A DNA stretch of 64,000 nucleotides from Verrucomicrobiales bacterium (GTDB lineage: Bacteria; Verrucomicrobiota; Verrucomicrobiia; Verrucomicrobiales; DEV007). The stretch spans positions 124,001 to 188,000 of the forward strand of contig JAEUHI010000046.1 of the NCBI GenBank assembly GCA_016795385.1, written 5' to 3'. Positions 15,001 to 64,000 of this stretch are shown here, piece after piece. How positions within the stretch are numbered: position 1 is the first letter of the stretch; each line of letters opens with the position of its first letter. The notes beneath the pieces are model-generated. The model was not told the origin of the DNA. It did no database searches and saw nothing but the letters and a program-made list of their open reading frames with translations. The translations under genes and the position numbers were made by a program.

Positions 15001-17518
15001 CCCTGCTGCCACTCAGGCTCTCTGGGACGTGCATTTCCGCGATGGCCAGATCCCCAGCCATGTTCTGGACAATCAGAACCGCGCCAGCGCTGCCCTCAGC
15101 ATCGTCAAGGCGGGTGATGGCTGGGCCACCCTTAGCGTGGACAATCATCACACCGGATCCACAACCGTCACCGGCGGCATCCTCCAGGTCGGCCGCAATG
15201 GTGTGGGGGACACTGGAGCTGTCGGTGCTGCGGGCTTAACAGCGGACGCTGGCACGACCATCGCGGGCACCGGCGTGATCCAAGGCAACAGCACCATCAA
15301 TGGCTTCCTCCGCCCCGGCGATGAAGCGGGCGGTTCGATGGGCACGCTCTTTATCAACGGCACCCTAACTCTGGCGGGGACAACGACAATTAACCTTCAG
15401 ACCCAGCGCGCCAGCTACACGGCATTGAACGCGGTGAACATCCACGACAGTGAATATGGCACCTGGAACGCCGGCCACGCCTCGGACCCTCTCTACAGTC
15501 ACTTGTCGAACGATCCCGTCACCACCGCCCAGCATGACCAACTCCGGGTCTCCGGAACAATCACCTCCGGTGGAAAGATCGTCGTGGCCAATAACGGATA
15601 CAATCCGACCGCGGGTGACATTTTCAATCTCCTCGACTGGACCGGTGCGGCTCTCGCTTATAACACCGGCGGAATCGCCCACAACGGCGGAATCTTCCGC
15701 ACCGGAGCCGAGACCGGCACGGATCTCGATCTCTTCGAGCTGGGGCATGGCTTCGTCTGGGACGTGAGCCAGTTCAACGCCACTGGCAACCTCATCGTGG
15801 CACAGGCAATCAGCCGCCGGATGTATTGGAATGGAGATGTCGGTGCGGCATGGAACACTGCCGGAAACACGAACTGGCAAGATGCGGAAACAGGCGGCTC
15901 CGATCCAGGAAATGTTCCCGTCTTTACTGACGACGTCTACTTCAGCACTTCCGGAGCCGGAAATCTCGCAACCTCTCTCGGTGCGAATTTCACGATTCGC
16001 AGCCTCAACTTTGGCTCGGGTTCGAACGCCAGCTCGAGCGTGACGGTGAATACCGGCAGCAACACCCTCACGGTCTACGAAGGGGTGAACCAGACGACCG
16101 GCTCCGCGGCCAACACGATCAGCGGAAGCGGCGGTGTCGTCCTTGCGAAGGATCAAACCTGGACCGTGGACAGCACGAACGCTTTGACGGTGAGCGCTCC
16201 CGTAAGCGGGGCTTCCTCCCTGACGAAGGCCGGTGCGGGCACCTTGGTGCTCTCCGGAGCGAATACCTACTCCGGCGCGACGACGGTTTCGGCCGGGACC
16301 CTCCAGCTGGGAGACGGCGGCACGACGGGCTCGCTCAACACCGCGAGCGCCCTCGTCAACAATGCCACCCTCGCTTTCAACCGCAGCAACACCCTCACCC
16401 AAGGCACCGATTTCAACGCGGTGATCAGTGGAACGGGTGAAGTTCGTCAGATTGGCACGGGCACCACGGTTCTGAACGGAGCCAACACTTACTCCGGTGC
16501 CACCGTCGTCTCGGCCGGGACGCTGCGCGTCACGGCCAACACGGCTCTCGGCACCACCGCGGCAGGCACCACGGTTGCCTCCGGAGGCACCCTGGAGTTG
16601 GCGGGCGATGTCACGGTGACCGGCGAAGACCTCACCCTGAACGGCGACGGAGCCGGCGGCAACGGCGCGCTTCGCAGCAGCTCGGGCAACAACACCTTCG
16701 CCGGAAACATCACCTTGGCCTCGAACAGCCGGATCCAATCCGATACGGCCGGAGATCTCCTCCTCATCGATGCGGCCTCTGGTGACGCCATCTCCGGTAC
16801 GAACGTGAATGTGACCTTCGCCGGCGAAGGCGACATCACCGTGGCCGATGCGATCGCTCTGGGCACGGGCAGCCTCACGAAGGACGGCGAAGGGATCCTC
16901 ACGCTGAACGGTAACAATACCTACACCGGGACGACGACGGTCTCGAACGGCATCCTGGTGATGAACGGCAACAACTCCGCGGCGACGGGCGATGTCACGA
17001 TTGGCACGAACGCGATCCTCGGCGGTGAAGGAACCATCGGTGGCAACACCTCCGTCTTCGGTTCGATCTCCACCGGAAGCAATCCCGATGCGTTCGATAT
17101 CGGCACGCTCAACTTCAATGGCAAGAACCTGACCTTCGAGGACAACAGCTCCTGGTTCGTGGATCTCGTGCAGGATACCAACGGATTCTCCGACCTGATC
17201 AACAACGTGGGAACCTTCACGATCGGTGCGAACACGACCCTGAATCTGCTCCCGGATGCGACCAGCTTCACGGTCGGCCACTCCTACACGATCGCCAGCT
17301 ACGGCACCCGCACCGGCACCTTCAGCAACTTCGCCGATGGAGCCATCATCTCGGGCTACCAGATCAGCTACGGAGCCAACGCCATCACCCTTACCGCGGT
17401 GCCCGAACCGGGCACGCTGGGGCTGCTGGGACTGGCCCTCGCCGGCTTCTTCACCCGCCGCATCCGCCGCCGCCGTGCGGAGGCTGCGATGGTGCAGACG
17501 GAGAACTCGGAGTCCTGA
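2..17518 (+). CDS. Giant PATR-repeat surface protein with PEP-CTERM tail (5' partial)
   Basis: The frame is open to the left edge, so the true start lies upstream; the GTG at 56 is only the first start-like codon. At least 5838 residues are visible. The protein is rich in Gly, Thr, Asn and Ser. It is built of short beta-strand repeats of the type GTLTLTGxNTYTGxTTVxxGTL, alternating with linkers like NETIGSLAGTGG, the hallmark of autotransporter-associated (PATR, PF12951) passenger domains. There is no autotransporter beta-barrel. Instead it ends with VPEPGTLGLLGLALAGFF and an Arg-rich tail, a PEP-CTERM signal. That predicts Sec export, exosortase processing and release or anchoring at the cell surface, probably as an adhesin or matrix protein. 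It stands alone, with a hairpin just after the stop. Family and topology are secure; the biological role is inferred. Confidence 0.93.
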   Translation, partial: TITGSDLAASSTAETLTFVAQNYQGAISGTGNLIKSGRFTQVFTAGGTLSYTGTTTVNNGILQFNKASATTGVTVNNVGTFLANAANATGATAAVNLAGTTSTFQVNNGFNQSVGSLTGVANSRLAISRGATATHFTVTDNGGSPAAFSGVIVETGTGANGASFTKAGTNTLILGGGNNYTGATTINDGTLQTAASSLVQVLPDRSAVVLADVATAILDLNGVNETIGSLAGGGTTGGNVLLGSGRLTVGMDGTSTSFGGVLSGTGGLTKIGNGVLTLTGNSTATGSVIVQGGGLSLAAASSNTLASGVNLSLTGRNATLTVNTNQTLGVLTSGKNSILNLGTGATLSSGVANVSVTTTTVNAIAVGANVATFTAAHGLSEGMLLTGTNIPAGTFVRRVISSTSIELSQPIGTAVTASTSITGTGTNIIASKMTGAGGYTKEGTGTVWLAPSSPLAESTNTGATTINAGTLLIGGEASTHNILSRNSALVVNTGGTLNFFGPNVNLRNYQEVGSLAGTGGTINLRPNNVGSAALVVGGDNSTTSWGGVFVGDTADAALMKTGTGTLTLTGVHTSDNIYRVEQGGLTISGTGRLDDASLVVLSNTTGAILTYSIGANTDSVRNLVGGGRVAGFQPYTFGGSAPFATNFGGNSTTMTGGEVGVAASSILRVSSNDTPRVFGGVLSGVGTFQKSGTGLMDLWGANTIDNVLVDAGILRLGAYGQATGLGALSTSGFGTLSDTAVLTVNGGTFDLNGASETVGRIAGTGGNLALINGTLTTTAQTTLSTGTALTGNFNSVLNLGATAASTLTLTGNSTGFGGTINVGSNAALTLNRSGGAINSTGLFGARVNLNGTGTQLTVTLADTIGSLAGTGNAALTQGLTLREAASGTASATAFSGATSGAGALILSGFGGLSLSSNLGHTGGLTASSNSVLNLNYGTGNNILPGTGALTLNGGHLRVISTDSASGILESVASTTLGAGASSVRALNSSTGYLDSGVDGINLAAITRNAGGTLDVGRNAAATSTANGASGILGGYATFNGSTWAVGDGAGTVAITGLAAGSYTADGIGSAVHNDITLGNGTGTVATLRFNGSATVDQSAAITTGTGGILVTRNVGANTSTISGALNATGNELIIHQYNPLGDLVLSNVAGTNTVITTAGGGRTLITNNIGGTGTTNIGYGYLQVGDDTVGGSTTGMVGSGNIFNNGTLAFNRSNAVGIPTAVISGTGNLEQLGSGTTTLGGTNTFAGRVTVRGGTLEVTNNVGLGLGFTSPTNRWANLTSVNTGGTLSFTGGVTSIAELLNLDGGTLNIATTAASTYSAPLVLSSSSTITLGAGAAVTHVLSGQIIGAPGSNLTINGGASGSTLAFTNPNNVINGTLSIGANANVMIGNNSAGTLGVTGAITNNGTLIFNSNDSFQFFGNTVSGAGNIEVRRSNVYLTGDLSGATGNLVIPGSDLGIQIFLGDHDFTPAAPGFSNIIVNGATANANVDRGVRFSQANNVLTLGSNIALAPLANTNANRLTYFIKNNVGTLELTGKIAGEYAATSIDDRSYLEVNHGLLRIVTNAASNNYLMGLTAGVPDPAKAFGGQIALAGDTNQGRVVANWGYFELTGDANQTISANITGGGSADQGGIFIYNGSGTLTLSPGTTSTSAFDGNTLFNNRNQINRGTVIFNGSAGGGAWRNDGFISVGSGATLQVNAAETTNIGVMKNGTLNLNGANYTQNGNSAFFAAGQIIGAGALILNGNVTHRLNNPNNTFAGGLTFTRNQTQFVDAGSLGSGTITIDSGASTEAETQLLQYVGLTSTVETISNNLTITGTSGNRQKGVASYGVGQLVIASTVTNNTAANFFNLRGSATGTDPNMAPFASWSIGVPTVSGQIVGAGGLLKDDGGAWALTNATNTFTGSINHNNGRLIASAIGVLGGSTKTYNLGSGTGTPTLEFSSAFTGGAMPSTMEMNLSGTTGTIRIVNLGSGALTIADPTWTATGGGAKTLAIGRFDDTTGFTNVISGAIVNNSGTNTTALTKDGLSTWRLNGVSTFTGATTINNGVLQLGNAAGTTLADSVDVNVNNAFGRGSTLELLFNETIDHLSGNLGATVQLNGNTLTIGANNGAATYNGLITGTGGITKTGTAAIGLGGQNNNLPTLGQNAYTGVTRVNGGRIDTATLANGGVASGIGQSSNAAANLVLAGTVADSGLRFIGTRAQTTDRLLSFGPVGALSSPTAIWADGAFNEGINESTITFGNTGDIGFTGTGARTVTLRGGAVVNNVFAPRIIDNGAEVTSLQKTEQSIWVLTNANTFTGAVTINGGTLAITNNGALGTSAGGVTITQPGDNTRAFLDLRGVTVTGEALTYTGGANNNSAGFGASTGTNLWTGTVAINQAAIVPVFSGASFELSGVVSGSNTINKYGSGTLILSNNNTVTGAFLARGGVVELNYTTNNGSKLADGGALNLGGGGALAVQGQGLWNSGSNAMHSEGTVIRLVGDHSGGQEIVSATTVDLGSSSIIRSSGTTVLRLNAITRGVGGTLDFGAASIANTDTNSTNGILGGWATVAQANWAFSIGTGAADTAITALGTYTADTWATANNVDVATSSNQSGQVNSLRFNTAAANTITLTAAGTVNTGGILVTNAVGANASTITGSTLTAGNANDGDYDLIVHQYNAGNPFILGSSIINNGANAVGLTITGTGPVVLTSDASLRSGTTNLNTGSVLRVGNAGGAYGLSAVTTGTLGGNGTTASVVSGAINNNGSLIFDGAGADISLNGAINGNGTIELAATNTRTIIFNNSGNNFYGDTYINGGILAYGQAAVNVGNNSGLNTPGLGSNIGRTVIGADGRLEFRVVQAVNPQNLTPAVPQASEFITVNEGGEIGIPSSIVNGNFVIQANLNLSYRIDLDNTTTGGATFDVAGSNHLSSNGIIKGANGFTKTGDGILQIAGTNWIDGAPTLSGQIVVANGLLYVGNNSRSLGATGVGNETIVQSGATLDLRDTDLAFGDDPTATREIIRIAGIGVNGTGALRNTAGTANLTDLVLTANARVGGNARIDMVAFDTDTSPGITATAPVLNGGGFDLTKVGSGEFVPLETTITGLNKLIIAEGEFRAETRSQFPFATNVVNAFPLGNPAGTPTPLANYPHTILTSANIANGIDLVYGGPTADPLSTALPLPIVGARLDLFRQHGAHHTANITSFGASSGTGGSYLELNADTLPKVYTFWDGNINLTGIANGSNTFFNIEAGGAGTNISNTVTGTLSPSGDQVVNPTSMLIVQGQITGTGGVTKIGSRELRLTGNNTFGGDFVVMRQNNNAQPIDPVQNEAYSNGWSASLYGQGQLSGTSNIVLERRGMLRVINHNLFDGTNVNGAGTTNVGANLADRINDAATLKLRDGFLVFDSGNNNVTETLGTLRPEFGDTFVVANLQDGSNKNTTLTVNAFARQAGSTLTFTSWDSTATFGTTAPAGDDSFRIATTGTGLTFTGAGGPTSAGIATGLYGGLAVQPISDPYIWANATASTQERNMIFFSGRDFMRLDGGYLRPLDDSEYYTNIANMAGAAGQNLNLSLPHTAVLDNLSVNSLRFGNLNDNLNDSSGAYLIPGTRMVGWQQTNNALTIDEGRTLTIASGMILFANMGQGVNQDMVTYINGGTLSFGANEGVITNVNGWYRTSDGQMVSTGAYIRSTIAGSVAPGNVGITKSGLGEVYFDGINTYTGTTKVANGLLRLRSNAALGAGGDGNGVVIEGSGSILFNAGVNLGMNTAWQVNPALANNGLNINANREDTYVGVLSADNQIFMRSNDSVNRHYGNVTIDNVDSAGQTAHGAVRLQPRLLVDANATMIVGGNIGGGNTAVSQDTYYIDSRGWSLDGSAGWLILQGSVGDKLNGSGNPLSVTGPLSNKATGTIVNATSTTATSASTTVTVNNTLGLWVNMAISGSGIPAGTTVTHINPWNNTLTLSQAATIPGGSSLSSASLVNENEVLRTWIGGSDHLNVEATQPWTAVGRIELQRGWLRYTGNAGTDFYDPATLALINGSEAGNNHVGLQIGGGVMKNDPGNDSMVGFLLTKPGQSLGVNNWTITNNANNNQGMTMIGGENESGTVTFGPTTSVTNSTIALGRNLAIYANAGGTVENHSRFTGGSISKIGRGTVVLYGNTLANFGATNLALAGSTITNLQTTGGELVFDYTQANNSRTNSNHSTNFNGGTLRLVGNATANTTQSISNTNNNVLNLRAGGTEVVVQSATGRTTTLNMGRLASATDGAVVTRATGGTVNFVEFGNGGTSVITLAAKTGIVSNASMPWATYGAAPRTAIDFAMVDTTGANVNPFGRAFDEFNNDVATWNATGDISENGGGGFRNALSANLTLNSLRFDANADSTVDLGANTLTVHGTTFGSFAGGGILVSSNVGAANKTITGGVLTTVNNGELMIHHYGNGTLNIGSQIGAAGAAPGRVIVTGPAMTGAAQLSSWNSATNGQVILSGANQTANVETRWLLNGGVLSVDAENRLGKTTFAAAAADAVYMNGGVLRWTGTGSSALDVNRGFQIGGNGGVIDVVDGSANLQITGDIESENWLGNIQTATAGQYIGGDLIKMGAGTLTLTGGTDAIQGNFKGMIDVREGTLRINGNISTAVTGTQTVNILGDNRTNLLDGTIFRNGTNFEIAMGPTGYTTGTVPEWRIEENLRFEGSNTIRFGIPGNTNRTTHLNGVIDVAGSITVDVVSGMTARFNQSSGGYMTGAGNVTKTGLGTLEFRDNNVLWSGALNVYEGTMRLISTGLPGGVGTTAVTLGSTTHQGISELQLYSEQGYVGAVYELFQDINVIYNPLQSKRISFGADTAAGNNAWFHGDVTLSDNLGLYMIQGGRFPGGTYNSMYFTGDFKDDAVNNRSGNIVFHTDDNNSSTANNQQVGEGSGFLVLRGNNSLWTGDLEIGINQSYDQDELSIVRLENVNALTNKNDVLMRGSSALQIAGNNVTIGSLITNNAALNGTSTVGTANDGTGNFIGTTGSSAFIENASTTAATLTITQTTPAATQALWDVHFRDGQIPSHVLDNQNRASAALSIVKAGDGWATLSVDNHHTGSTTVTGGILQVGRNGVGDTGAVGAAGLTADAGTTIAGTGVIQGNSTINGFLRPGDEAGGSMGTLFINGTLTLAGTTTINLQTQRASYTALNAVNIHDSEYGTWNAGHASDPLYSHLSNDPVTTAQHDQLRVSGTITSGGKIVVANNGYNPTAGDIFNLLDWTGAALAYNTGGIAHNGGIFRTGAETGTDLDLFELGHGFVWDVSQFNATGNLIVAQAISRRMYWNGDVGAAWNTAGNTNWQDAETGGSDPGNVPVFTDDVYFSTSGAGNLATSLGANFTIRSLNFGSGSNASSSVTVNTGSNTLTVYEGVNQTTGSAANTISGSGGVVLAKDQTWTVDSTNALTVSAPVSGASSLTKAGAGTLVLSGANTYSGATTVSAGTLQLGDGGTTGSLNTASALVNNATLAFNRSNTLTQGTDFNAVISGTGEVRQIGTGTTVLNGANTYSGATVVSAGTLRVTANTALGTTAAGTTVASGGTLELAGDVTVTGEDLTLNGDGAGGNGALRSSSGNNTFAGNITLASNSRIQSDTAGDLLLIDAASGDAISGTNVNVTFAGEGDITVADAIALGTGSLTKDGEGILTLNGNNTYTGTTTVSNGILVMNGNNSAATGDVTIGTNAILGGEGTIGGNTSVFGSISTGSNPDAFDIGTLNFNGKNLTFEDNSSWFVDLVQDTNGFSDLINNVGTFTIGANTTLNLLPDATSFTVGHSYTIASYGTRTGTFSNFADGAIISGYQISYGANAITLTAVPEPGTLGLLGLALAGFFTRRIRRRRAEAAMVQTENSES
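1078..1275 (+). repeat. IPxGT-type module, copy 1, inside the giant PATR protein
   Basis: A short non-PATR module with the pattern GMLLTGTNIPAGTFV..I.S.TSIELS. A second copy lies at about 11650-11860 (MAISGSGIPAGTTVTHI...NTLTLSQAAT). The two are separated by about 10 kb and are inserted between PATR units. The family was not identified. Confidence 0.55.
3028..3416 (+). repeat. Long internal module, copy A, in the giant PATR protein
   Basis: Encodes about 130 residues running from GGTLDVG through NGILGG-like and STW segments to GGILVTRNVGAN and IIHQYN. Copy B at about 7555-7974 matches it segment by segment. Copy C near 13020-13230 retains only the second half. This is larger than the ordinary PATR unit. 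Boundaries are approximate. Confidence 0.7.
7555..7974 (+). repeat. Long internal module, copy B, in the giant PATR protein
   Basis: Begins GGTLDFGAAS, passes NGILGGWATV and LNSLRFNTAA-type segments, then GGILVTNAVGANAS, and ends LIVHQYN. It is clearly homologous to copy A at the protein level but diverged at the DNA level, so this is an old duplication rather than a recent one. Confidence 0.7.
11650..11860 (+). repeat. IPxGT-type module, copy 2, inside the giant PATR protein
   Basis: Second copy of the module seen at 1078-1275. Shared features are the SGSGIPAGT core, a following TxVTxI strand and a closing TLTLSQAAT strand. It interrupts the PATR pattern. Confidence 0.55.
13020..13230 (+). 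repeat. Long internal module, copy C (partial), in the giant PATR protein
   Basis: Contains LNSLRFDANADS, then GGGILVSSNVGAANKTITGG and MIHHYGNG, matching the C-terminal halves of copies A and B. The N-terminal half is replaced by a segment (DFAMVDTTGAN, DEFNNDVATWNA) that resembles a unit earlier in the protein near 10450-10790. Confidence 0.55.
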
Positions 17519-41709: not shown

Positions 41710-43329
41710 ATGCCACGCATGAACTCCCGCTTGTTTGGCTCTCTCGCCGCCGTCATCCTGCTTGCCGCCACCTTTTCCCATGCCGATGAACCCGCTCCGC
41801 CGAAGGGCTTCCGGGCGATCTTCAACGGCAAGGATCTCACGGGCTGGTACGGGTGGAATCCCCACACCTCGGCCAAGCTCGAAGGCGAAAAGCTCGCCGC
41901 GAACCTGAAAGAACAGCGCGCCGATTTCGCGAACCACTGGCGCGTCGAGAACGGCGAGCTGGTCAACAGCGGCACCGGTCCCTACGCGACGACGGAGGAG
42001 GAATTCGGCGACTTCGAACTGCACATCGAATACAAGACCGTCGCCGGAGCCGACAGCGGGATCTACCTCCGCGGCATGCCCCAGGTGCAGATCTGGGACA
42101 TGAACCAGGTCTTCGACCCCGCCAAACCCGACCGCCGTCCCCACCTCGGATCCGGCGGGCTTTTCAACAACACACCCAAGACTCTCGGGCGTGATCCCAT
42201 CGCGAAGATGGACAAGCCCTTCGGCCAATGGAACAGCTTCAAGATCAAACAAATCGGCGCCCGCACCTGGGTGACCCTGAATGGCCGGGTCGTCGTCGAG
42301 GGAGCGGATTTTGAGAGTTACCCCGACAAAACGCAACCCTTTCCAGCCAAGGGACCCTTGATGCTGCAGACCCACGGCGGCGAAATCCGCTGGCGCAATC
42401 TCTACGTCAGGGAAATCGGTGAGAAGGAAGCCCAGGCTTTCCTCGCGGCCAATCCCGTGCTACCGGATCCCACCCATTACGACGTGGCCTACGGACCGCA
42501 TCCCAAACAGGTGATGCACGTGTGGAAAGCCAAATCTGACAAGCCGACTCCGGTCTTGCTCTTCATCCACGGCGGCGGTTGGTCGGGCGGGGCACGGCTC
42601 AGCGGGCTGATTCCCTTGCTGAATCCCCTCCTCGAAAAAGGCATCTCCGTCGCCTCGGTGGAGTATCGATTCATCGCCGAAGCGACCGCCGATGGCATCG
42701 TGCCTCCGGTGAAGGGACCCCTCACCGACGCGGCGCGCGCCCTCCAGTTCCTCCGCAGCAAGGCGGGCGAGTGGGGACTCGACAAAACGAAGATCGGCGC
42801 CAGCGGCGGATCGGCCGGGGCCTGCACCTCACTCTGGCTCGCCTTTAACGATGATCTCGCCGATCCGATGAGCGAGGATCCCGTCGCCCGCGAGTCGAGC
42901 CGGCTTTCCTTTGCCGCCGTCTCCGGTGCCCAGACCACCCTTGATCCGGCGCAGATGAAGGAATGGACGCCGAACAGCCGGTATGGAGGTCATGCCTTCG
43001 GCTTCACCGGCGACCCGGGCAAAAAGATCACCCAATTCGACGAGTTCCTCGCCAAACGTGAGACCATTCTCCCCTGGATCGCCGAGTATTCGCCTTACGC
43101 GCTCGTCTCGAAGGATGATCCGCCGGTCTATCTTTATTACGGCGCCCCTCCGGCGCTCGGGAAAGAAGAGAAGGATCCAACCCACAGCGCGAACTTCGGT
43201 CTGAAGCTGCAGGAACATTGCGAGGCGAACGGAGTGAAGTGCGAGTTCTCTTACCCCGGCGCCGAGGGAGTCACGCCGACCGTTCTGGAGTATCTCCTCA
43301 AAGCCTTCGGCGTCGCCGAAGGAGAATGA
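41710..43329 (+). CDS. DUF1080-alpha/beta-hydrolase fusion, exported
   Basis: 539 residues; the signal peptide follows either ATG 41710 or ATG 41719 (NSRLFGSLAAVILLAATFSHA). Residues about 32-235 are DUF1080 (AIFNGKDLTGWYGWN, HWRVENGELVNSG, FELHIEYKTVAGADSGIYLRG, RWRNLYVREIG). Residues about 265-535 are an alpha/beta hydrolase of the BD-FAE/HSL type: FIHGGGWSGG for the oxyanion hole, GASGGSAGAC with the nucleophile Ser, PVYLYYGAPP and a late acid/His region. So two carbohydrate-active domains are joined, possibly de-esterifying and cleaving the same sugar. The specific substrate is not known. Confidence 0.85.
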   Translation: MPRMNSRLFGSLAAVILLAATFSHADEPAPPKGFRAIFNGKDLTGWYGWNPHTSAKLEGEKLAANLKEQRADFANHWRVENGELVNSGTGPYATTEEEFGDFELHIEYKTVAGADSGIYLRGMPQVQIWDMNQVFDPAKPDRRPHLGSGGLFNNTPKTLGRDPIAKMDKPFGQWNSFKIKQIGARTWVTLNGRVVVEGADFESYPDKTQPFPAKGPLMLQTHGGEIRWRNLYVREIGEKEAQAFLAANPVLPDPTHYDVAYGPHPKQVMHVWKAKSDKPTPVLLFIHGGGWSGGARLSGLIPLLNPLLEKGISVASVEYRFIAEATADGIVPPVKGPLTDAARALQFLRSKAGEWGLDKTKIGASGGSAGACTSLWLAFNDDLADPMSEDPVARESSRLSFAAVSGAQTTLDPAQMKEWTPNSRYGGHAFGFTGDPGKKITQFDEFLAKRETILPWIAEYSPYALVSKDDPPVYLYYGAPPALGKEEKDPTHSANFGLKLQEHCEANGVKCEFSYPGAEGVTPTVLEYLLKAFGVAEGE

Positions 43330-43476: not shown

Positions 43477-44037
43477 ATGAAGAAACCGCTCCTGTCCCTG
43501 CTTGCTTTTCTCACACTCGCTGCCGCCGTGCCCGCCTCCGCCGAAGAGGTTTACTTTTTCCGGGGCGGCTTCGACATCTTTTCGACGGGGATGAACCAGA
43601 TGGCCAGTGAGCTTCGGGCGAAAAAGATCAAGGCGACCTCGCAGAGTTTCATGTCGTGGCAGTCGATCGCGAACGATATCGTGAAGCGCTCGAAGGAGAA
43701 GAAGGTCTCTTACCCCATCATCGTCCTCGGGCATTCCTTTGGAGCCGATGCGGTGACGGAGTTCGCGAATTTCCTCGGACAGAACGGGATCAGCACCGAA
43801 TTGGTGATCGCCTTCGACGCGACCGGGCAGCGCACCCTCACCAAAGGGGCGAAGAAAGTGATCAACTACCGCTCGTCCCACATCGGCCCCTTCGTGAAAG
43901 GCCCCGGCTTCCGTGGCACCCTGTCGCACGTCGATGTTTCGAAGTATGGCGCGAACCACTTCACGATCGAGCAGGTCAAAGAGGTGCAGGCTCTCGCGAT
44001 GAAGGAAGTGCTCGCCAAGGTGGGCCGCCGCCGCTGA
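43477..44037 (+). CDS. Exported alpha/beta-hydrolase (thioesterase/lipase-like)
   Basis: 186 residues, with the signal peptide MKKPLLSLLAFLTLAAAVPASA. The serine-hydrolase elbow GHSFGAD puts the nucleophile at S87; D114 (IAFDATG) and H161 (GANHFTIEQ) complete a plausible triad. Small size without a lid resembles lipase or thioesterase folds of PE-PPE/thioesterase type. Substrate unknown. It heads a unit of three genes: the acyltransferase starts 24 bases after it and overlaps the methyltransferase. Shares the word ACCCTGTTGA (43460-43469) with the leader of the polyketide synthase. Confidence 0.7.
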   Translation: MKKPLLSLLAFLTLAAAVPASAEEVYFFRGGFDIFSTGMNQMASELRAKKIKATSQSFMSWQSIANDIVKRSKEKKVSYPIIVLGHSFGADAVTEFANFLGQNGISTELVIAFDATGQRTLTKGAKKVINYRSSHIGPFVKGPGFRGTLSHVDVSKYGANHFTIEQVKEVQALAMKEVLAKVGRRR

Positions 44038-44061
44038 GTCGGGGATCCGCGCACCCGGGAC

Positions 44062-45396
44062 ATGTCATTGGCCGGCCCATCGACCCCGACCGCGGGACCG
44101 GGGCCGGTCTCCGGGAAGCTGAATGAATTCCAGCGGACCATGCTCCAATGGAGTGGTCTGCACCCCTATAACGCGGTCCACGTCGCCCGTGTCACCTCGG
44201 TGATCGAGCCGGAAGGTTTCGCGAGGGCGACCGCCCATGTGCTCGCCGCCGCCGGCCTCACGAATTATTCGGTGTGGGAAAAGGGCGGACGTTACCGCTA
44301 CGAGGGTGGTCAGGTCGAGGTGACGCCGGTCCTCATCGATGGGGGCGAGGATCCGGTGGCGATCGTGCATCGCGAGATGGCCCGGCAATTGGACGAGCCC
44401 TTTCCGCGGGACAAGGTCTTTCAACCTTTCCGGTGGTTCCTGGTCCGGGGAGTGGGCGAGACCTTTGTCGGGATCGCTTACTTCCACGTCGTCGCCGATG
44501 CCGAGGCGATCGGCCGGCTCCTGCGTGAGGTGATCACGGCGGCTTTTGATGAATCGCCTTTGCCGCTACGGGATCCTTCGCTCGCTGAACGGCGCAGCTC
44601 GCGGGTGCCGACGGGTGGGCCGATCGGGCTGCTGCGTCGGACGGCGGCGGCTTACGGCAAATTCCAGCGGATGCGGCAGAGCTTCCGTTCTCCGGATTGT
44701 CCGGTGAACCGGTTTGGCAATGAGTGGTTCGGCCGATCCCTCGATGCGGAGGAGACCGCGGCGGTGCTCTCGCTCGCGAAGCAACAAGGCGCGACGGTGA
44801 ACGATCTTTGTCTCGCGGCCGTTCTTCAGGCGGTCATCCCTGCGGCGATGTGGCGTTTTGAAAAGAAGCGGCAGCATCTCTCGGCGGGCTGCGTCGTGAA
44901 CCTGCGGCGCGACCTCCCCGAGGCGCGTCGGCGGGATTTTGGGCTGTTTCTCGGGTCCTTCTCCGTGACGCATCCGGTGCCGGTGACGGTGCGGCTCGAG
45001 GAGTTGGTCGCCAGCGTCCACGCCCAGGCCGAGGAGGTGAAGCGGGCCAAACTCTACCTCGCCTCGCGGCTGGAGTTCCGCATGAACCGCTTTCTCTTTG
45101 CGAGGCAGCCTCTCGAAAAACAGCGCAATTTTTACCGGAAGGCCTATCCGGTGTGGGGTAGCATCACCAATTTCAAGATGGACGGATTTCAGATCGGAGA
45201 GAAGGCTCGGGTCGCCGACTACTATCGCGCGGTCTCGGCGGGACCGGCGCTGCCGTTCGTGATCGGGGTGACCGGATTCGACGGACGCCTCCAGTTCGGC
45301 TTCACCTACCGCCCCGACGTCATCCAGGGCGACATCGTCCGCGGCATTGCGGACCGCTTTTTACAAATTCTCACCGGAAAGGAACCCACGGCATGA
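44062..45396 (+). CDS. Condensation-domain-fold acyltransferase
   Basis: 444 residues of the CoA-dependent acyltransferase / NRPS condensation superfamily. The active-site motif HxxxD appears as FHVVADAEAIG (H142, D146) after the GIAYFH strand. Second-half markers are the VNDLCLAAVLQAV helix, AGCVVNLRRDLPE, and DFGLFLGSFSVTHPV, comparable to the DFGxG structural motif. No carrier or adenylation domain is attached. Such stand-alone enzymes (PapA-, wax-ester- and alcohol-acyltransferase-like) move an acyl group to an alcohol or amine. Product is unknown. Its stop overlaps the next gene by ATGA coupling. Confidence 0.75.
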   Translation: MSLAGPSTPTAGPGPVSGKLNEFQRTMLQWSGLHPYNAVHVARVTSVIEPEGFARATAHVLAAAGLTNYSVWEKGGRYRYEGGQVEVTPVLIDGGEDPVAIVHREMARQLDEPFPRDKVFQPFRWFLVRGVGETFVGIAYFHVVADAEAIGRLLREVITAAFDESPLPLRDPSLAERRSSRVPTGGPIGLLRRTAAAYGKFQRMRQSFRSPDCPVNRFGNEWFGRSLDAEETAAVLSLAKQQGATVNDLCLAAVLQAVIPAAMWRFEKKRQHLSAGCVVNLRRDLPEARRRDFGLFLGSFSVTHPVPVTVRLEELVASVHAQAEEVKRAKLYLASRLEFRMNRFLFARQPLEKQRNFYRKAYPVWGSITNFKMDGFQIGEKARVADYYRAVSAGPALPFVIGVTGFDGRLQFGFTYRPDVIQGDIVRGIADRFLQILTGKEPTA

Positions 45397-46001
45397 ACGA
45401 AGAATTTCTCTGGCAGCGGATCGTGGTGGCTTTGTCAGGGCTCGTCTATTGGGGCGGCGTCGTGATCCAGGCCCGCCGCGTCCGCAAGAAGATCGGCCGC
45501 ACCCCGAACCTGAAACCCAAAGGCACGAAGGAGCGCCTCCTCTGGGTCGGCTGGACGCTCGTCATCCTTTGTTGGATCCTCCAACCCCTCTGGGTGCGGG
45601 GCACCGGATCATGGTACGGCGTGCAGGCGTCGCTCGTCCATCCCGCCGCTTGGGTCGCGGGTGTGATCCTCATCGTGCTCGGCTATGCCGCGACCCTCTG
45701 GTGCTATGCAGCGATGGGCGCGGCCTGGCGGATCGGGATCGATGAGAAGGGCACCTCGAAGCTGGTGCAAGTCGGGCCGTATCGCCGCATCCGGCATCCC
45801 ATCTATGGATTCCAGATGACGATGTTGATCGGGGCGGCGCTGTTGCTGCCGACCTGGATTTCCTTCGCGATCCTCGTGATCCACTACGTCTGTGCAACCA
45901 TCAAGGCGGTCGATGAAGAGCGGCACCTCACCGGGGTCTTCGGCGCGGAGTATCGCGATTTCATGAAACGCACCGGCCGTTTCCTGCCGGGGCGGGGGTG
46001 A
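45393..46001 (+). CDS. ICMT/PEMT-family membrane methyltransferase
   Basis: 202 residues with about five membrane segments. The C-terminal signature GPYRRIRHPIYGF and EERHLTGVFGAEYRDFMKRTGRFLP is that of the isoprenylcysteine carboxyl methyltransferase / phospholipid methyltransferase family, which binds SAM between the last helices. Bacterial members methylate carboxyls or lipids of varied substrates; the target here is unknown. Overlaps the acyltransferase stop by four bases (ATGA), preceded by a good GGAAAGGA ribosome site. Co-expression with the acyltransferase is therefore firm. Confidence 0.82.
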   Translation: MNEEFLWQRIVVALSGLVYWGGVVIQARRVRKKIGRTPNLKPKGTKERLLWVGWTLVILCWILQPLWVRGTGSWYGVQASLVHPAAWVAGVILIVLGYAATLWCYAAMGAAWRIGIDEKGTSKLVQVGPYRRIRHPIYGFQMTMLIGAALLLPTWISFAILVIHYVCATIKAVDEERHLTGVFGAEYRDFMKRTGRFLPGRG

Positions 46002-57203: not shown

Positions 57204-60200
57204 ATGTCCGACTCCACCCAAGCGACTCACGAACCCCTGGCCATCGTTGGTATCGGCTGCCGTCTCCCCGGTGGCGTCAACGGGCCGGAGTCCTTCTGGC
57301 AACTGATGGTGGAGGGGCGTTCGGGGATCGTGCCAGTGCCGGTGGACCGCTGGAACCGCGAGCGATGGCACCACGAGAATGTGGACATTCCGGGCAAGAT
57401 GATCACGAAGTGGGGGGGCTTCATCCACGATTTCGACCGTTTCGACTCCCAATTCTTCGGGATTTCGCCCCGCGAGGCCCTGCGGATGGACCCCCAGCAG
57501 CGCTGGCTCCTCGAGGCGGCGTGGGAGTCGCTCGAAGACGCCGGGATCCCTCCGGTCTCGCTCCGCGGCAGCAACACGGCGGTTTACGTGGGGATCGCGT
57601 CGAATGACTACGCCAACGTCGCCCAGAGCGATCCGCGCAACGTCGACGTGCACACGAACTCGGGCAGCACGCTCTCCATCGCGTCAAACCGGATCTCGTA
57701 TCTCTTTGATTTCAAGGGGCCTGCGGTCTCCGTGGACACCGCCTGTTCCTCCGCTCTTGTCGCCATCAACCTCGCCTGCGAAAGCATTTGGGCAGGGGAG
57801 GCCTCGATGGCGCTGGCGGGTGGGGTGAATGCCCTGCTCACGCCCGATGCCTCGATCGGCTTCTCAAAGGCCACGATGCTCTCGCCGTCGGGCCAGTGTT
57901 TCGCCTTTGACGATCGCGCCAACGGCTACGTCCGCGGGGAAGGAGCCGGAATTTTCACGATCAAGAAGCTCGCCGATGCCCAGCGGGACGGCGACCGGGT
58001 CTATTGCGTGATCCGCGCCGCGGTGATCAACCAGGATGGCCACACCTCCTCGATGACCGTGCCGGGCGTGGAAACGCAGGCCAAGATGCTCGAGGATGCC
58101 CTCGCGAAATCAGGGATCCAGCCCAAACATGTTCGCTACATGGAAGCCCACGGCACCGGCACGCCGGTTGGCGATCCGATCGAAACCCGTGCCCTCGGGA
58201 TGGTGCTCTCCCGCGGGCGCGACGAGGGCGATTATTGCCTCATCGGCTCGGTGAAGACGAATGTCGGTCACCTTGAGTCGGGCTCGGGCGTCGCCGGTCT
58301 CGCGAAGGCGGCTTTGGTGCTGTATCACGACCAGGTCCCCGGGAACCTCAATTTCAAGCGCCCGAATCCGAATATTCCCTTCGAGGAATTCAAGCTGAAG
58401 GTCGCGACGGAACTCCAGCCGCTGCCGCACCTGGGCGATCTCCCGCCGGTGGTCGGCGTGAACAGCTTCGGATTCGGGGGGACGAACTCCCACATCCTGC
58501 TCGAGGCCCCGCCGAAGCCCGTGGTAAAGGCAAAGGAATCCCTGCCCCTCACGATTTCATCAGGATCCGCCAAATCCGTCGAGCGCCCGGTGCTGCTGCC
58601 ACTCTCGGCCCGCACTGACGACGCCCTCCGCGACACCGTGATCCGCTGGCGCCGTTTCCTCCGCGCCTCCGAGGAGCAACTCGGCGACATCGCCGCCGCC
58701 GCCGGAACGAAGCGCGAACACCACGATCACCGCCTCGCCATCGTGGCGAAGGATCGCGAGGATCTCATCCACCGCCTCACCGAGTGGCTCGCCGAGGGTG
58801 ACCGCAGCGGCCAGGTCTTTTCGGGCCGTCCCGTCGCCGAAGCGCATCCGCTCGTCTTCGTCTTCACGGGCCAAGGTGCCCAGTGGTGGGCGATGGGGCA
58901 GGATCTCATCCAGCGCGAGCCGGTTTTCCGCAAGGTGCTCGAGGAGATCGATTCCTACCTTAAGCCGCTCGCCGGTTGGTCGCTCATCGAAGAGATGACG
59001 CGGGACGAGGCCTCCTCGCAGATCAACCGGACCAACATCGCCCAGCCCGCCATCTTCGGCCTCCAGGTCGCTTTGGCGGAACTTTGGAAGTCGTGGGGAA
59101 TCCGTCCCTCGAAGGTCGTCGGTCACTCCGTCGGTGAGGTCGCCGCGGCCTATGTCGCCGGGGCTTATTCTTTGGAAGACGCGGTCAAGGTGATCTACCA
59201 CCGCTCGCGCCTGCAGGACCAGACCGGTGGCAAAGGCCGCATGGTCGCGGTCGGCCTTTCCCAGTCGGAGGCCCGCAAGGCCATCGCCGGCAAGGAAGAC
59301 CAGGTGCAGGTGGCGGTGATCAACAGCCCCGGCATGGTCACGTTGGCCGGTGACACCGCACCGCTTGAGGAAGTGGTCGCCGGACTCGAGGCCCAGGGCA
59401 AATTCGTCCGCTGGCTGCGCATCGACTACGCTTTCCATACCCACCAGATGGAGCCGATCCGCGAGGAACTTCTCGAGGTGTTGGCCGATATCAAACCGCT
59501 GCCCACCAGCATTCCCTATATCTCCACCGTCACCGGCGGGGTCTGCGAAGGTACCAAGCTCGATGCCCAATACTGGTGGCAGAACGTCCGCGAGGCCGTG
59601 CTTTTCGCCCCCGCGATCGCCAGCCTGATCCGGGCCGGGGAAGATTCCTTCCTCGAAGTGGGGCCGCACCCCGCGCTCCAAAATCCGATCATGGAGTGTC
59701 TTTCGGACCAAAACCGGAAGGGTTTCTATTTCTCCAGCCTCAAGCGCAAGACGGACGAATCCGAGGAAATGCTCGGCAGTCTTGCCCGCCTCCACCTCCA
59801 TGGCTACGGGATCGATTGGGATTCCGTGAACCAGGCCACCGGGGTGATCGTGCGCCTGCCCACCTACGCCTGGCAGCACGAGCGTTTCTGGCTGGAGTCG
59901 GCCGAGGGTCATTACCTCCGCTGCGCCCCGATCGAGCATCCGCTCCTCGGACTGGCCCAGACCGCGCCGCGCCCGACCTGGCGGTTTGATCTCGATCCCC
60001 GCTATTTCACCTGGCTAGACGACCACCGTTTCTGGGACAGCGTCGTCTTCCCGGCCGCGGGATACGGCGAAATCGGTCTCGCGATCGCCCGCAAGCTTTT
60101 CCCGGGGGAAAACTACGCGGTCGAGGATCTCGAGATGAAAAAGGCCCTCTTCGTCACCGAAGAGAAGGTGCCGACCGTCGAGGTGGTCTTTGATCCGATC

Positions 60201-63200
60201 ACGAAGGTCTTCCAGATCTTCAGCTCCACCGGCGAATACAAGGATTGGGATCTCAATTCCCAGGGTGTGCTACGCAAACTCCCGGTTCCGGCGGATGCCT
60301 CGGCCGATCTGAATGCGATCAAAGCCGGCCTGCCCCGCCATTTCACCCACGAAGAGTATTACGAGGATTACGAGGAGGCCGGCTACCAGTTCCGCCCGCT
60401 CTTCCAGCACCTCCAGAATGTCTGGCGCAAGGATGGCGAGGCTCTCGCCGAGATCGTCGCTCCCGAGGGGCTGAAGGACACGATCCCCGACCACCATTTC
60501 CATCCCGCGGTGCTCGACGCCTGTTTCCACACCGTGAAAGGGGGGCAGGTCATTCCCGATGGCGCCCTCGCCACCGACTACTTCTACCTGCCTGCGGCGA
60601 TCCGCAGCATCCGTCTCTACACCGACAAGCCGCCACTGCGCCTCTGGGGGCATGCCAAGGTCAACTCGGACAACGACCGCGAATACATCATCGCCGACAT
60701 CAAGGTCTATGACGATGGTGGCCGCCTCGTCGCCGAAATCTACGGATTCCGTGCCGACCGGGTCGAGCAGAGCAAGGCGGACGACCTTGAAAAATGCCTT
60801 TACCAGGCGAGCTGGGAACCGCTCCTGCTGAAGGGCACCCGGATCGACGGACCGGCCAAGATTCCGGCTCCCGCGGAACTGGTGAAGGCCGCGAACGAAG
60901 GCCTGCAGGCGCTCTACGACGCCCGCGGTCTCGGGAACCACTACGGCAAGTTCCTGCCCGCGATGGAGGAGCTTTCCCGGCAGTTCATCGTCAACGCTTA
61001 TCTCGATCTCGGATGGCAGCCCCGGGTGGGTGATCGCGTCACCGTGGCCGGTCACATGCGCGATCTGATGATCGCGGATCACCACCGCAAGCTCGTCTTT
61101 GGGCAGCTCACCGCCCTTACCGAAGGTGGTTTCCTGAAATCTGTTGGAGAAGAGGAGTGGGAAGTGATCGAGGTCCCGGTGCGCGAGGAGGCCCTCAAGT
61201 GGGTCGACCGTCTCGCCAAACAGATGCCGGAATTTGCCTCGGAGGCCGAGCTGCAGCGCCTCGCCGGGCCGAATCTCGCCGGAGTCCTTTGTGGAGAGAA
61301 AGATCCCATCGAAGTGCTCTTCCCTGGCGGTTCCTCGCGGGTGATGGAGCGTTTCTACCGTGAAGGCGCCGACTTCCCCGTGATCAACGAGCAGATCCGC
61401 CTCGCCCTCGCCGCGGCGGTGAAGAATCTCCCCGAGCGCCGCGCCATCCGCGTCCTCGAAGTCGGAGCCGGCACGGGATCGCTCACCGGGCAGATTCTCA
61501 CGGTCTTCCCGCCCGATCGCACCGAGTATTTCTTCACGGACAATGGTCCGACCTTCCTCCAGGCGGCGCAGGATCGCTTTGAGGAGAATTTTCCCTTCGT
61601 GGAATACAAGATCTTCGACTGTGAGAAGGATCCGGTGGCCCAGGGTTTCGAACCCCACCATTTCGATCTCATCATCGCTTCGAACGTGATCCACGCCACT
61701 GCCGACCTCAGCGTGACGATGGGCAATCTCCGGAAGGCCCTCGCTCCCGACGGCATCCTCATGTTCCTCGAGGTGACCTGGCGCCGTGCCGCCCTCGACA
61801 ACGTCTTCGGTCTACTGCCCGGTTGGTGGCGTTTCTCCGACAAGGAACTCCGGAAACGTTCCGCGCTGCTGACCCGGTCGGAGTGGGAGAAATTCCTCAC
61901 CAGCCTGGATTTCCGCGACGTGACGAGCTTTATCAGTTCGCCGAATGCGAAAGAAGACCAGCAGGCCTGTCTCGTCGCCCGTGCGCCGGAACCGGTCGAG
62001 GTCGTCTCCGATGACGATGCGACGGCAGGCTCCGGTGAATCCGCTGAGGCCGTTGCCGCCGAAACGATCCTGATCACCCGCGATCAATCCGGCCTCGCCG
62101 AGCGTCTCGCGAAGGCCTTGGCCTCCGATGCGGTCGCGGTCCAGGTGGTCGATGGCACTCTCGCCGCGATTGATGCGGCACTGGACGAAGTCGCCGCCTC
62201 CGGAGGGATCGTGCGCGGTCTCATCCACACGCTCTCGCTGGATCATCCGAAAGCCGACCAGCTCGACGAAGCCTCCCTCAATGCGGCCCAGAATACCGGG
62301 GTTCGCTTTGCCCACCAGCTTTTCAAATCCATCACCGGCCGCGAATGGACGAAACGTCCCCGCGTCTTTTTCCTCACCCGCGGCACTCTGCCGGTCTTGC
62401 CCGGGGAGTCCCTTCCCGGACTGGCCTCGGCTCCGCTCACGGGTCTCCTCCGCGTCGCGAATAACGAGCAGCCCGATTTCATCTGGACCCAGATCGATCT
62501 CGATCCCGCGGACAACCCGAACGAAATCGAAGACCTCGTCGCCGAGATCTCCCTCGTTGGGAAGGAGCACGAGATCGCCTTCCGCGGGAACGGTCGTTAC
62601 GTCCGGCGCGTCCACCGCGTCAAGTCCGACGAGCTGCCTCCGCGCAAGCGCAACGCCGTCGCCAAGGACGGATCGATCACGCCCTATCGTCTCCAGATCG
62701 ACAAACCCGGCATTCTCACGAATCTCTCCCTCAACGAGACGATCCGCCGCGAGCCCGGTGCCGATGAGATCGAGGTGCTGGTGAAGGCGGGCGGGATCAA
62801 CTTCCGCGACGTCATGAAGGCCCTCGGGATCTACCCGGGACAGCCGGTTGATCTGAAATGGTTCGGCGACGACTTCTCCGGCACGGTCATCCGCGTCGGC
62901 TCGGCGGTGAAGGATCTCAAACCCGGCGACGACGTCGTCGGCATGGCTCCGTATTGCTTCCGCAGCCACGTCACCGTGCACCGGAACATGGTCTTCCGGA
63001 AGCCGGAGACGATGAGCCACACCGAGGCGGCGACCCTGCCGACCGTGTTCCTCACCTCGCACTACGCGATCAACGAGCTTGCCCGCATGGAGAAGGGCGA
63101 GAGCATCCTCATCCACGCCGGCACCGGCGGGGTGGGGCAGGCCGCGATCCAGATCGCGAAACACCTCGGGCTGACCATTTTCGCGACCGCCGGGAGCAAG

Positions 63201-64000
63201 GAGAAGCGCCAGCTCCTCACGGACATGGGCGTGGACCACGTCCTCGACTCGCGGACCCTCAAGTTCGCCGACGACATCATGGAGATCACGAACGGAGAAG
63301 GGGTCGATGCCGTCCTCAACTCCCTCGCCGGTGATTTCATTCCGAAGAATTTCTCCGTCCTGAAGACCTTCGGCCGCTACATGGAGATCGGCAAGGTCGA
63401 CGTCTACGGCAATTCCAAGATCGGCCTCGAGCCGCTGCGCAACAACATCAGCTTCTTCGTCATCGACCTCGCCCAGCACCTCCAGAGCAAGCCCGCCTAC
63501 ATCGCGCGCATGTTCTCGGATCTCGAGGCGAAGTTCTACGACGGCAGCTACGTGCCGCTGCCGAACCACGTTTTCCCCGTCACCGAAGTGGTCGAAGCCT
63601 TCCGCTTCATGGCCGCCGGCAAACACATCGGGAAAAACGTGCTCGATTTCGACTTGCCGGAAATTGAAATCGGCCAGCCGACCGAGGCGGGCCATCGTTT
63701 CCGTGGCGACGGCACCTATCTCATCACCGGTGGTGCCGGGGGCTTCGGCCTCGAACTCGCCACTTGGATGGCGAAGAATGGCGCCGGCCATTTCGCGCTC
63801 ATGAGCCGTTCCGGTCCGAACGCGGAATCGCTCGAGAAGATCGAGGCCCTTCGCGCCACCGGTGTCGAAGTGATCGACGCCCGCGGCGACGTTACCTCGC
63901 GTGCCGACCTCGACCGCATCATCGCGGACATCCAGGAAGGCGGCGCGCCGCTCATCGGCGTGATCCACGGGGCCATGGTCCTCGATGACGAATTCATCGT
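57204..64000 (+). CDS. Type I polyketide synthase, KS-AT-DH-MT-(pseudoKR)-ER-KR (3' partial)
   Basis: At least 2265 residues in one frame to the right edge. KS about 10-430 with VDTACSSA C181, H316 (EAHGTGT) and H356 (NVGHLESG), all active. AT about 554-850 with FTGQGAQ, GHSVGE (S642) and YAFH (742-745). DH has H941 (DHRFWDSVVFP, G replaced by D) and D1105 (LDACFH). C-methyltransferase has LEVGAGTG at 1418-1425. ER near 1840-2150 has AGGINFRDVM and GGVGQAAIQ (1975-1983). KR begins near 2165 with TGGAGGFG (2175-2182). An ACP has not yet been reached. The order matches fully reducing iterative synthases. No ribosome site is clear before the ATG. The AT fingerprint (YAFH with GHSVGE) is mixed between malonyl and methylmalonyl types, and the product is unknown. 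Confidence 0.92.
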   Translation, partial: MSDSTQATHEPLAIVGIGCRLPGGVNGPESFWQLMVEGRSGIVPVPVDRWNRERWHHENVDIPGKMITKWGGFIHDFDRFDSQFFGISPREALRMDPQQRWLLEAAWESLEDAGIPPVSLRGSNTAVYVGIASNDYANVAQSDPRNVDVHTNSGSTLSIASNRISYLFDFKGPAVSVDTACSSALVAINLACESIWAGEASMALAGGVNALLTPDASIGFSKATMLSPSGQCFAFDDRANGYVRGEGAGIFTIKKLADAQRDGDRVYCVIRAAVINQDGHTSSMTVPGVETQAKMLEDALAKSGIQPKHVRYMEAHGTGTPVGDPIETRALGMVLSRGRDEGDYCLIGSVKTNVGHLESGSGVAGLAKAALVLYHDQVPGNLNFKRPNPNIPFEEFKLKVATELQPLPHLGDLPPVVGVNSFGFGGTNSHILLEAPPKPVVKAKESLPLTISSGSAKSVERPVLLPLSARTDDALRDTVIRWRRFLRASEEQLGDIAAAAGTKREHHDHRLAIVAKDREDLIHRLTEWLAEGDRSGQVFSGRPVAEAHPLVFVFTGQGAQWWAMGQDLIQREPVFRKVLEEIDSYLKPLAGWSLIEEMTRDEASSQINRTNIAQPAIFGLQVALAELWKSWGIRPSKVVGHSVGEVAAAYVAGAYSLEDAVKVIYHRSRLQDQTGGKGRMVAVGLSQSEARKAIAGKEDQVQVAVINSPGMVTLAGDTAPLEEVVAGLEAQGKFVRWLRIDYAFHTHQMEPIREELLEVLADIKPLPTSIPYISTVTGGVCEGTKLDAQYWWQNVREAVLFAPAIASLIRAGEDSFLEVGPHPALQNPIMECLSDQNRKGFYFSSLKRKTDESEEMLGSLARLHLHGYGIDWDSVNQATGVIVRLPTYAWQHERFWLESAEGHYLRCAPIEHPLLGLAQTAPRPTWRFDLDPRYFTWLDDHRFWDSVVFPAAGYGEIGLAIARKLFPGENYAVEDLEMKKALFVTEEKVPTVEVVFDPITKVFQIFSSTGEYKDWDLNSQGVLRKLPVPADASADLNAIKAGLPRHFTHEEYYEDYEEAGYQFRPLFQHLQNVWRKDGEALAEIVAPEGLKDTIPDHHFHPAVLDACFHTVKGGQVIPDGALATDYFYLPAAIRSIRLYTDKPPLRLWGHAKVNSDNDREYIIADIKVYDDGGRLVAEIYGFRADRVEQSKADDLEKCLYQASWEPLLLKGTRIDGPAKIPAPAELVKAANEGLQALYDARGLGNHYGKFLPAMEELSRQFIVNAYLDLGWQPRVGDRVTVAGHMRDLMIADHHRKLVFGQLTALTEGGFLKSVGEEEWEVIEVPVREEALKWVDRLAKQMPEFASEAELQRLAGPNLAGVLCGEKDPIEVLFPGGSSRVMERFYREGADFPVINEQIRLALAAAVKNLPERRAIRVLEVGAGTGSLTGQILTVFPPDRTEYFFTDNGPTFLQAAQDRFEENFPFVEYKIFDCEKDPVAQGFEPHHFDLIIASNVIHATADLSVTMGNLRKALAPDGILMFLEVTWRRAALDNVFGLLPGWWRFSDKELRKRSALLTRSEWEKFLTSLDFRDVTSFISSPNAKEDQQACLVARAPEPVEVVSDDDATAGSGESAEAVAAETILITRDQSGLAERLAKALASDAVAVQVVDGTLAAIDAALDEVAASGGIVRGLIHTLSLDHPKADQLDEASLNAAQNTGVRFAHQLFKSITGREWTKRPRVFFLTRGTLPVLPGESLPGLASAPLTGLLRVANNEQPDFIWTQIDLDPADNPNEIEDLVAEISLVGKEHEIAFRGNGRYVRRVHRVKSDELPPRKRNAVAKDGSITPYRLQIDKPGILTNLSLNETIRREPGADEIEVLVKAGGINFRDVMKALGIYPGQPVDLKWFGDDFSGTVIRVGSAVKDLKPGDDVVGMAPYCFRSHVTVHRNMVFRKPETMSHTEAATLPTVFLTSHYAINELARMEKGESILIHAGTGGVGQAAIQIAKHLGLTIFATAGSKEKRQLLTDMGVDHVLDSRTLKFADDIMEITNGEGVDAVLNSLAGDFIPKNFSVLKTFGRYMEIGKVDVYGNSKIGLEPLRNNISFFVIDLAQHLQSKPAYIARMFSDLEAKFYDGSYVPLPNHVFPVTEVVEAFRFMAAGKHIGKNVLDFDLPEIEIGQPTEAGHRFRGDGTYLITGGAGGFGLELATWMAKNGAGHFALMSRSGPNAESLEKIEALRATGVEVIDARGDVTSRADLDRIIADIQEGGAPLIGVIHGAMVLDDEFI

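Follow-up and report, generated by a model that had tools for sequence, protein, structure and literature searches.

A 64,000-nucleotide stretch of a Verrucomicrobiales genome (assembly GCA_016795385.1, contig JAEUHI010000046.1; positions 124001-188000 of contig 49 in genome G000, genome size 6.5 Mb), hereafter the window, carries three adjacent genes on the + strand that encode an exported hydrolase (HYD), a presumed acyltransferase of the condensation fold (AT) and a membrane methyltransferase (MT). The HYD-AT-MT trio is a conserved, co-inherited unit that was found in the same order and on a single strand in 11 loci besides the window, and the three genes very probably act as one functional unit. 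The trio probably finishes a lipid, because related units adjoin, or occur in the same genome as, a dedicated cluster for building fatty acids. Genomes and loci are designated below by G and L numbers, respectively.

HYD occupies positions 43477..44037 (+; 186 amino acids) and is separated by 24 bases from AT (44062..45396, +; 444 amino acids), whose stop codon overlaps the start of MT (45393..46001, +; 202 amino acids) in a 4-base ATGA. This arrangement had been given in a preliminary description of the window, and direct reading of the sequence confirmed it. From the spacing and the conservation of the genes, we infer that the trio is expressed as a single transcript. Consensus scans of the window returned 0 promoter-like sites, compared to 0.4 expected by chance, and 5 terminator-like sites, compared to 2.8 expected by chance (standard deviation 2.0), which is near chance.

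The 11 further loci were identified by tblastn (L017, L018, L019, L020, L021, L022, L025, L026, L027, L030 and L031; L038 is the same place as L027). Across these loci the AT was 43-86% identical to that of the window, and the genes were separated by 0-40 bases or joined by short overlaps, given the start codons chosen. Named carriers of close homologues belonged to the Akkermansiaceae and other Verrucomicrobiota. The flanking genes varied between groups of trio loci, indicating that the trio outlives rearrangement. Gene placement was based on tblastn because the gene caller was unreliable on some loci: HYD was missed in L017, L022 and L026 and the whole trio in L034, and antisense frames were called in L107 and L133. 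Gene starts were partly guessed, and many of the genomes are incomplete metagenome assemblies.

AT was present in 15 of 95 related genomes. Strong HYD matches (E<1e-15) were found in 13/15 genomes with AT and in 0/80 without it (Fisher 3e-14), and MT orthologues (E<1e-35) in 14/15 and 0/80, respectively (Fisher 7e-16). The preliminary description had looked to other genomes for the trio and to close relatives for its linkage. Conservation was borne out by the further loci and by the co-occurrence over the 95 genomes, and the genes are indeed linked in close relatives: 10 of the 15 AT genomes hold a contiguous trio in the same order, and two (G024 and G009) hold all three genes linked in other orientations. 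AT and MT were together in G011, with HYD on another contig; they lay on separate contigs in G029, where no strong HYD was found; and AT was alone in G018. Weaker matches fell outside these counts. For HYD they comprised one genome that lacks AT (G027, E 5.3e-5) and an additional site in G019; for MT, family matches of E 9.4e-13 or weaker occurred in 27 further genomes of the 95, as expected because the MT family is broad. Phylum-wide profile searches over 387 genomes, which scored a small number of candidates in each (at most 4 and 8 among the rows listed), returned only the window's own genome, and no absence is claimed from them; no relative was found in a viral collection. AT relatives 27-30% identical were observed in Nitrospirota (L028 and L029), beside two other genes that both loci have in common (families c30 and c31), and no HYD or MT was found on the stretch around them.

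A second form of the unit, in which the genes run AT - lipoprotein hydrolase - MT on one strand, was found in nine loci of other Verrucomicrobiota (L023, L024, L129-L134 and L136). In the order of G465, 196 genomes were searched and AT was found in 9. The lipoprotein hydrolase carries GHSxGG and a conserved lipobox cysteine and is present in two copies in L024 and L132, one of the two copies in L132 being split between two frames. It was detected in 9/10 genomes of the lipoprotein-type set and in 0/15 AT genomes of the window's family, and a HYD query of those ten and two Nitrospirota genomes gave a single weak match of 43 residues. A profile comparison of HYD with the lipoprotein hydrolase gave a probability of 9% (E 0.0036) over 80 columns, GHSxG among them, so that their treatment as one family was rejected, common descent being neither shown nor excluded by this value. 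The designation hydrolase rests on the motif for both enzymes and, for HYD, also on the fold. In the AT tree, the ATs of trios with HYD formed one group (SH-aLRT 100) next to the lipoprotein-type ATs; L136, in which AT is cut by the contig end, was left out of the tree and of the motif check.

The lipoprotein-type loci point to a partner for the trio. In L023, L024 and L131 the trio runs directly, on the same strand, into a cluster that resembles a type II fatty acid synthase (FAS-II) and encodes a short-chain dehydrogenase/reductase (SDR), FabG, an acyl carrier protein (ACP), a dehydratase, two ketosynthases (KS) and an LpxL-type acyltransferase, in that order. The SDR is FabL-like (316 bits compared to a model cut-off of 328) and the dehydratase has a FabA domain. 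The L133 trio is preceded on the same strand by an SDR-like fragment and by a ketosynthase (38% identity). Within the order of G465, the dehydratase was found in 6/8 genomes with AT and in 0/20 without it (p 7e-5); the 20 were those listed among 187 AT-negative genomes of that order, the p value takes no account of relatedness, and the 6/8 leaves out the genomes of L023 and L024, because each was a source of the marker or similar to it. In the window's family the cluster is encoded away from the trio; in G000, four of its genes were found at the end of contig 34 (L107). Taken with the co-occurrence, we consider the FAS-II-like cluster likely to be the partner of the trio.

The cluster shares several components with aryl polyene and flexirubin-type type II polyketide synthase (PKS) clusters, namely two KS, an ACP, FabG, a dehydratase, an LpxL/HtrB-like acyltransferase and, in some, an AcpS-type domain. 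One cluster FabG scored 225 bits against the flexirubin FlxB model, under the cut-off of 340 and among many SDR models. Aryl polyene clusters combine a KS with a catalytically dead chain-length factor, and include an aryl-AMP ligase and MMPL/LolA export genes. In contrast, both ketosynthases of the FAS-II-like cluster retain Cys-His-His in six aligned clusters, so that neither of the pair appears to be an inactive chain-length factor; the FabL-like SDR is a further difference. Inspection by eye of limited stretches around the FAS-II-like cluster revealed neither an aryl-AMP ligase nor an MMPL exporter. An unusual fusion was observed, in which one frame encodes an LpxL/HtrB-type acyltransferase preceded by an AcpS/phosphopantetheinyl transferase domain (L111:5808-7283, L024:19414-20901 and L117:13236-14438); the calls were based on family matches for L024 and L111 and on alignment for L117. 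In L023, as in L024, the LpxL-type acyltransferase shares its frame with an AcpS-type part.

HYD is a minimal alpha/beta serine hydrolase with GxSxG and a predicted Ser-Asp-His triad, as judged from its sequence and its modelled structure. Its N-terminus is hydrophobic over residues 4-22 by hydropathy, ends in ASA|EE and is consistent with a signal peptide of approximately residues 1-22. The motif reads GHSFGAD, and S87, D114 and H161 were invariant in 10/10 aligned members; the codon of Ser87, the presumed nucleophile from sequence and alignment, lies at 43735..43737 (+). HYD scored 20 bits against the class 3 lipase family Lipase_3 (PF01764), under the gathering cut-off of 22, and 6/10 members reached that family at E 0.01. 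The HYD model had a pLDDT of 87.0, and its top structural matches were esterases, with Z up to 14.4.

AT is assigned to the condensation fold (CAT superfamily) by its predicted whole-chain fold and by an HxxxD motif, H142xxxD146, which reads HVVAD at 44485..44499 (+) by alignment and lies within YFHVVADA. The model (pLDDT 85.5) has the condensation/PapA5 fold over residues 13-444, and no hydrophobic segment was found by hydropathy. In structure comparison 358 of the 999 compared chains reached Z >= 8, and the 50 matches listed comprised condensation, cyclisation, epimerisation, PapA5, WS/DGAT (wax ester synthase/diacylglycerol acyltransferase) and related folds. As a single sequence AT matched no solved structure, whereas its profile did. 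H142 was invariant in 19/19 aligned members, and D146 was conserved in each of the 20 ATs from contiguous trios that entered the tree. The preliminary description had proposed placing AT among PapA, WS/DGAT or condensation clades. The condensation fold and membership of PapA_C (31.4 bits, over the cut-off of 30) were upheld, but the Condensation family (PF00668) was not reached at its gathering score (17.1 bits, under 30.6), nor did AT pass the PapA5 or WS/DGAT models considered below. Among 19 members, 11/19 reached E 1e-3 for PapA_C and 14/19 for Condensation.

MT is placed by its sequence in the ICMT/PEMT superfamily and is predicted to have several membrane segments. It passed both Pfam families, PEMT at 49.2 bits (cut-off 25) and ICMT at 35.5 bits (cut-off 24); hydropathy indicated 3-4 hydrophobic segments, and the profile of its C-terminal region matched the solved ICMT 4a2n at E 5.7e-14. 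MT nevertheless differs from ICMT itself in falling under the cut-off of the NCBIfam isoprenylcysteine O-methyltransferase model (NF040696; 73.6 bits compared to 160). Some MTs are extended at the N-terminus by about 40 residues, seemingly an extra signal or membrane segment, which is absent from the MT of the window (L021:11311-12045, L025:11287-12015, L026:8191-8910 and L027:11341-12048). The ICMT/PEMT-type enzymes SrsB and BpsB methylate phenolic lipids and are encoded beside type III PKSs; unlike that setting, no type III PKS was recognised by eye in the trio neighbourhoods listed. Planctomycetal operons combine a type III PKS, a methyltransferase and an oxidoreductase (PMC10896814). The trio resembles them as a short, conserved operon that includes a methyltransferase and belongs to the Planctomycetes-Verrucomicrobia-Chlamydiae (PVC) group, and differs in having an acyltransferase and a hydrolase in place of the type III PKS and the FAD-dependent oxidoreductase.

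These features can be joined in one mechanism, towards which we lean narrowly as a whole: the trio would be a module for acyl transfer, methyl capping and hydrolytic processing of a dedicated FAS-II product. The FAS-II-like cluster elsewhere in the genome would build a special acyl chain on its own ACP. The cytosolic AT would then use His142 to move the acyl group from ACP (or coenzyme A, CoA) onto an acceptor, at a hydroxyl or amine group, after which MT would methylate the product, at a carboxylate, phenol or hydroxyl, as a cap. On the other side of the membrane HYD, or elsewhere the lipoprotein hydrolase, would cleave an ester in the maturation, recycling or remodelling of the lipid. We infer the donor, the acceptor, the product, the order of the steps and the meeting of the exported hydrolase with the product alike. 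Because two dissimilar exported hydrolases accompany the same two enzymes, the comparison suggests that an extracytoplasmic cleavage step may be a required part of the pathway.

Several observations weigh against this mechanism or against the partnership on which it draws. The genome counts and Fisher tests ignore shared ancestry. In the window's family the dehydratase (E<1e-50) was found in 14/15 genomes with AT and in 11/17 without it (p 0.09), a weak association; for this test and that of the PKS below, the AT-negative set was 17 genomes of the window's genus from the 80, with G003, G017 and G022 left out. None of the window-family loci examined had the FAS-II cluster next to the trio, and 5/9 lipoprotein-type trios had no FAS-II gene on the stretch examined, the contigs of two of these being shorter than 7.3 kb. 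The search for a dehydratase orthologue was negative in the AT genomes G009, G520 and G560 (in the last of which AT is a fragment), genomes that are possibly incomplete. In the two Nitrospirota AT genomes, a genome search found no HYD, and the dehydratase matches were short and weak. The Asp of HxxxD is missing in the linked-but-rearranged loci L033, L034 and L035. Finally, the chemistry of AT may be other than acyl transfer, because the closest solved structure to the AT model is titled as a dehydratase (AzeD).

An alternative is that the trio serves the synthesis or remodelling of a common storage or membrane lipid, such as a wax ester, acylglycerol or phospholipid, from housekeeping acyl-CoA or acyl-ACP and with no special FAS-II. 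AT resembles the PapA-type acyltransferases of mycobacteria, of which PapA5 is one, in standing alone, in its HxxxD motif, in passing PapA_C and in matching the PapA5 structure (Z 26.3), and it shares both fold (6chj, Z 25.9) and HxxxD with the WS/DGAT wax ester and acylglycerol synthases. In favour of this alternative, PapA5 and WS/DGAT are among the structural matches of AT, the Pfam score of MT is higher for PEMT than for ICMT, and the FAS-II dehydratase is also present in many relatives without AT. However, AT scored 23.8 bits against the WS/DGAT model TIGR02946, which requires 309.95, and 14.6 against the PapA5 model NF006787, which requires 396, and its closest solved fold is that of AzeD and not PapA5. 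The patchy distribution of AT in 15/95 relatives is likewise unlike that of a core lipid or of WS/DGAT enzymes, and the lipoprotein-type trio is both linked to and co-occurring with FAS-II. We therefore regard an ordinary lipid as unlikely.

It is somewhat less likely again that AT is a condensation-fold enzyme of other chemistry, such as dehydration or an epimerisation-like reaction, and that the trio modifies an acyl-ACP intermediate. The nearest solved structure to the AT model was AzeD of Pseudomonas aeruginosa (8s6l; Z 39.1 over 415 residues, 3.1 A), followed by nonribosomal peptide synthetase (NRPS) condensation domains at Z 31.6, and the AT profile matched 8s6l at E 6.3e-11 in a profile search of solved structures. 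D146 is replaced by S or G in five distant AT homologues (L032, L033, L034, L035 and L036), all of which retain the His; MT is nearby in L033, L034 and L035, and HYD is also near in L034 and L035. Against these points, the structure title of 8s6l is dehydratase AzeD but its sequence record names the molecule as a phthiocerol/phthiodiolone dimycocerosyl transferase, a common fold shows no function, and the 20 ATs examined from contiguous trios all retain HxxxD.

The window also contains the start of a PKS-NRPS hybrid of 4009 amino acids, identified by its Pfam domains (57204-64000, +, continued in L039:205-12234). The domains are ordered ketosynthase, acyltransferase, dehydratase, methyltransferase, enoyl reductase, ketoreductase, acyl carrier protein, condensation, adenylation and peptidyl carrier protein (KS-AT-DH-MT-ER-KR-ACP-C-A-PCP), and the C-terminal region beyond them matched nothing in Pfam at E 1e-5. 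A query with the C-terminal 450 residues was matched in 29/32 genomes of the family, comprising 13/15 with AT and 16/17 without it; the three genomes that lacked a match were 69-77% complete. The preliminary description had placed the trio 11 kb from the PKS and asked whether the trio travels with a PKS. The distance was correct (11.2 kb from the end of MT to position 57204), but a special tie was rejected: the PKS C-terminal region occurs regardless of AT, so that the PKS is characteristic of the family as a whole, and where it lies close to the trio, as in some genomes, this reflects shared synteny across housekeeping-like genes. These intervening genes resemble DinG, NagA, MalQ and malate dehydrogenase (names assigned by eye) and are syntenic in relatives. 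The PKS region was not found in 12 AT genomes outside the family, an empty result that alone shows nothing. The PKS-NRPS thus looks to be core to the family, and travel of the trio with the PKS was not borne out.

That the trio is a tailoring set of this type I PKS-NRPS, in which AT offloads or acylates the product, MT methylates it and HYD edits it, is very improbable on these counts and because of the housekeeping-like genes that intervene, even though the two are close in the window, the order of trio, intervening genes and PKS recurs in L018, L025 and L027, both lie on one contig in G010 and G030, and mycobacterial PapA enzymes act with PKS products; the PKS and AT are on different contigs in, for example, G008, G049 and G056. 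The earlier proposal that the trio builds and caps an ester or amide lipid accordingly stands as to a conserved, co-inherited unit whose enzyme types fit, but not as to the link with the PKS, and the lipid itself is predicted from sequence.

Two other genes of the window were noted. Directly 5' of HYD, positions 41710-43329 (+) encode a protein in which a 3-keto-disaccharide hydrolase domain and a BD-FAE esterase domain are fused; homologues of this protein lie upstream of the trio in L017, L018 and L030 and, in L034, next to the HYD of the rearranged unit. An open frame of 5820 residues at the start of the window (56-17518, +) apparently encodes a giant, repetitive exported protein.

To our knowledge, lipid biosynthesis beyond the core pathways has been little described in Verrucomicrobiota. 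We noticed no account of a HYD-AT-MT trio in our literature searches, and absence from print beyond these searches is not claimed. The trio and its partner may, as a tentative proposal that we hold at somewhat less than even confidence, represent a new envelope-lipid pathway of Verrucomicrobiota, in which a dedicated FAS-II with an AcpS-LpxL fusion would provide an unusual acyl chain and a detachable three-enzyme module would complete it, with acyl transfer in the cytosol, methyl capping in the membrane and hydrolysis outside; between lineages, the exported hydrolase would have been swapped for a lipoprotein hydrolase of a different kind while AT and MT stay together. A conserved AT-MT-hydrolase module with a probable FAS-II partner provides a concrete target for lipidomics, and the marker genes indicate which relatives to test and which could serve as natural negatives.

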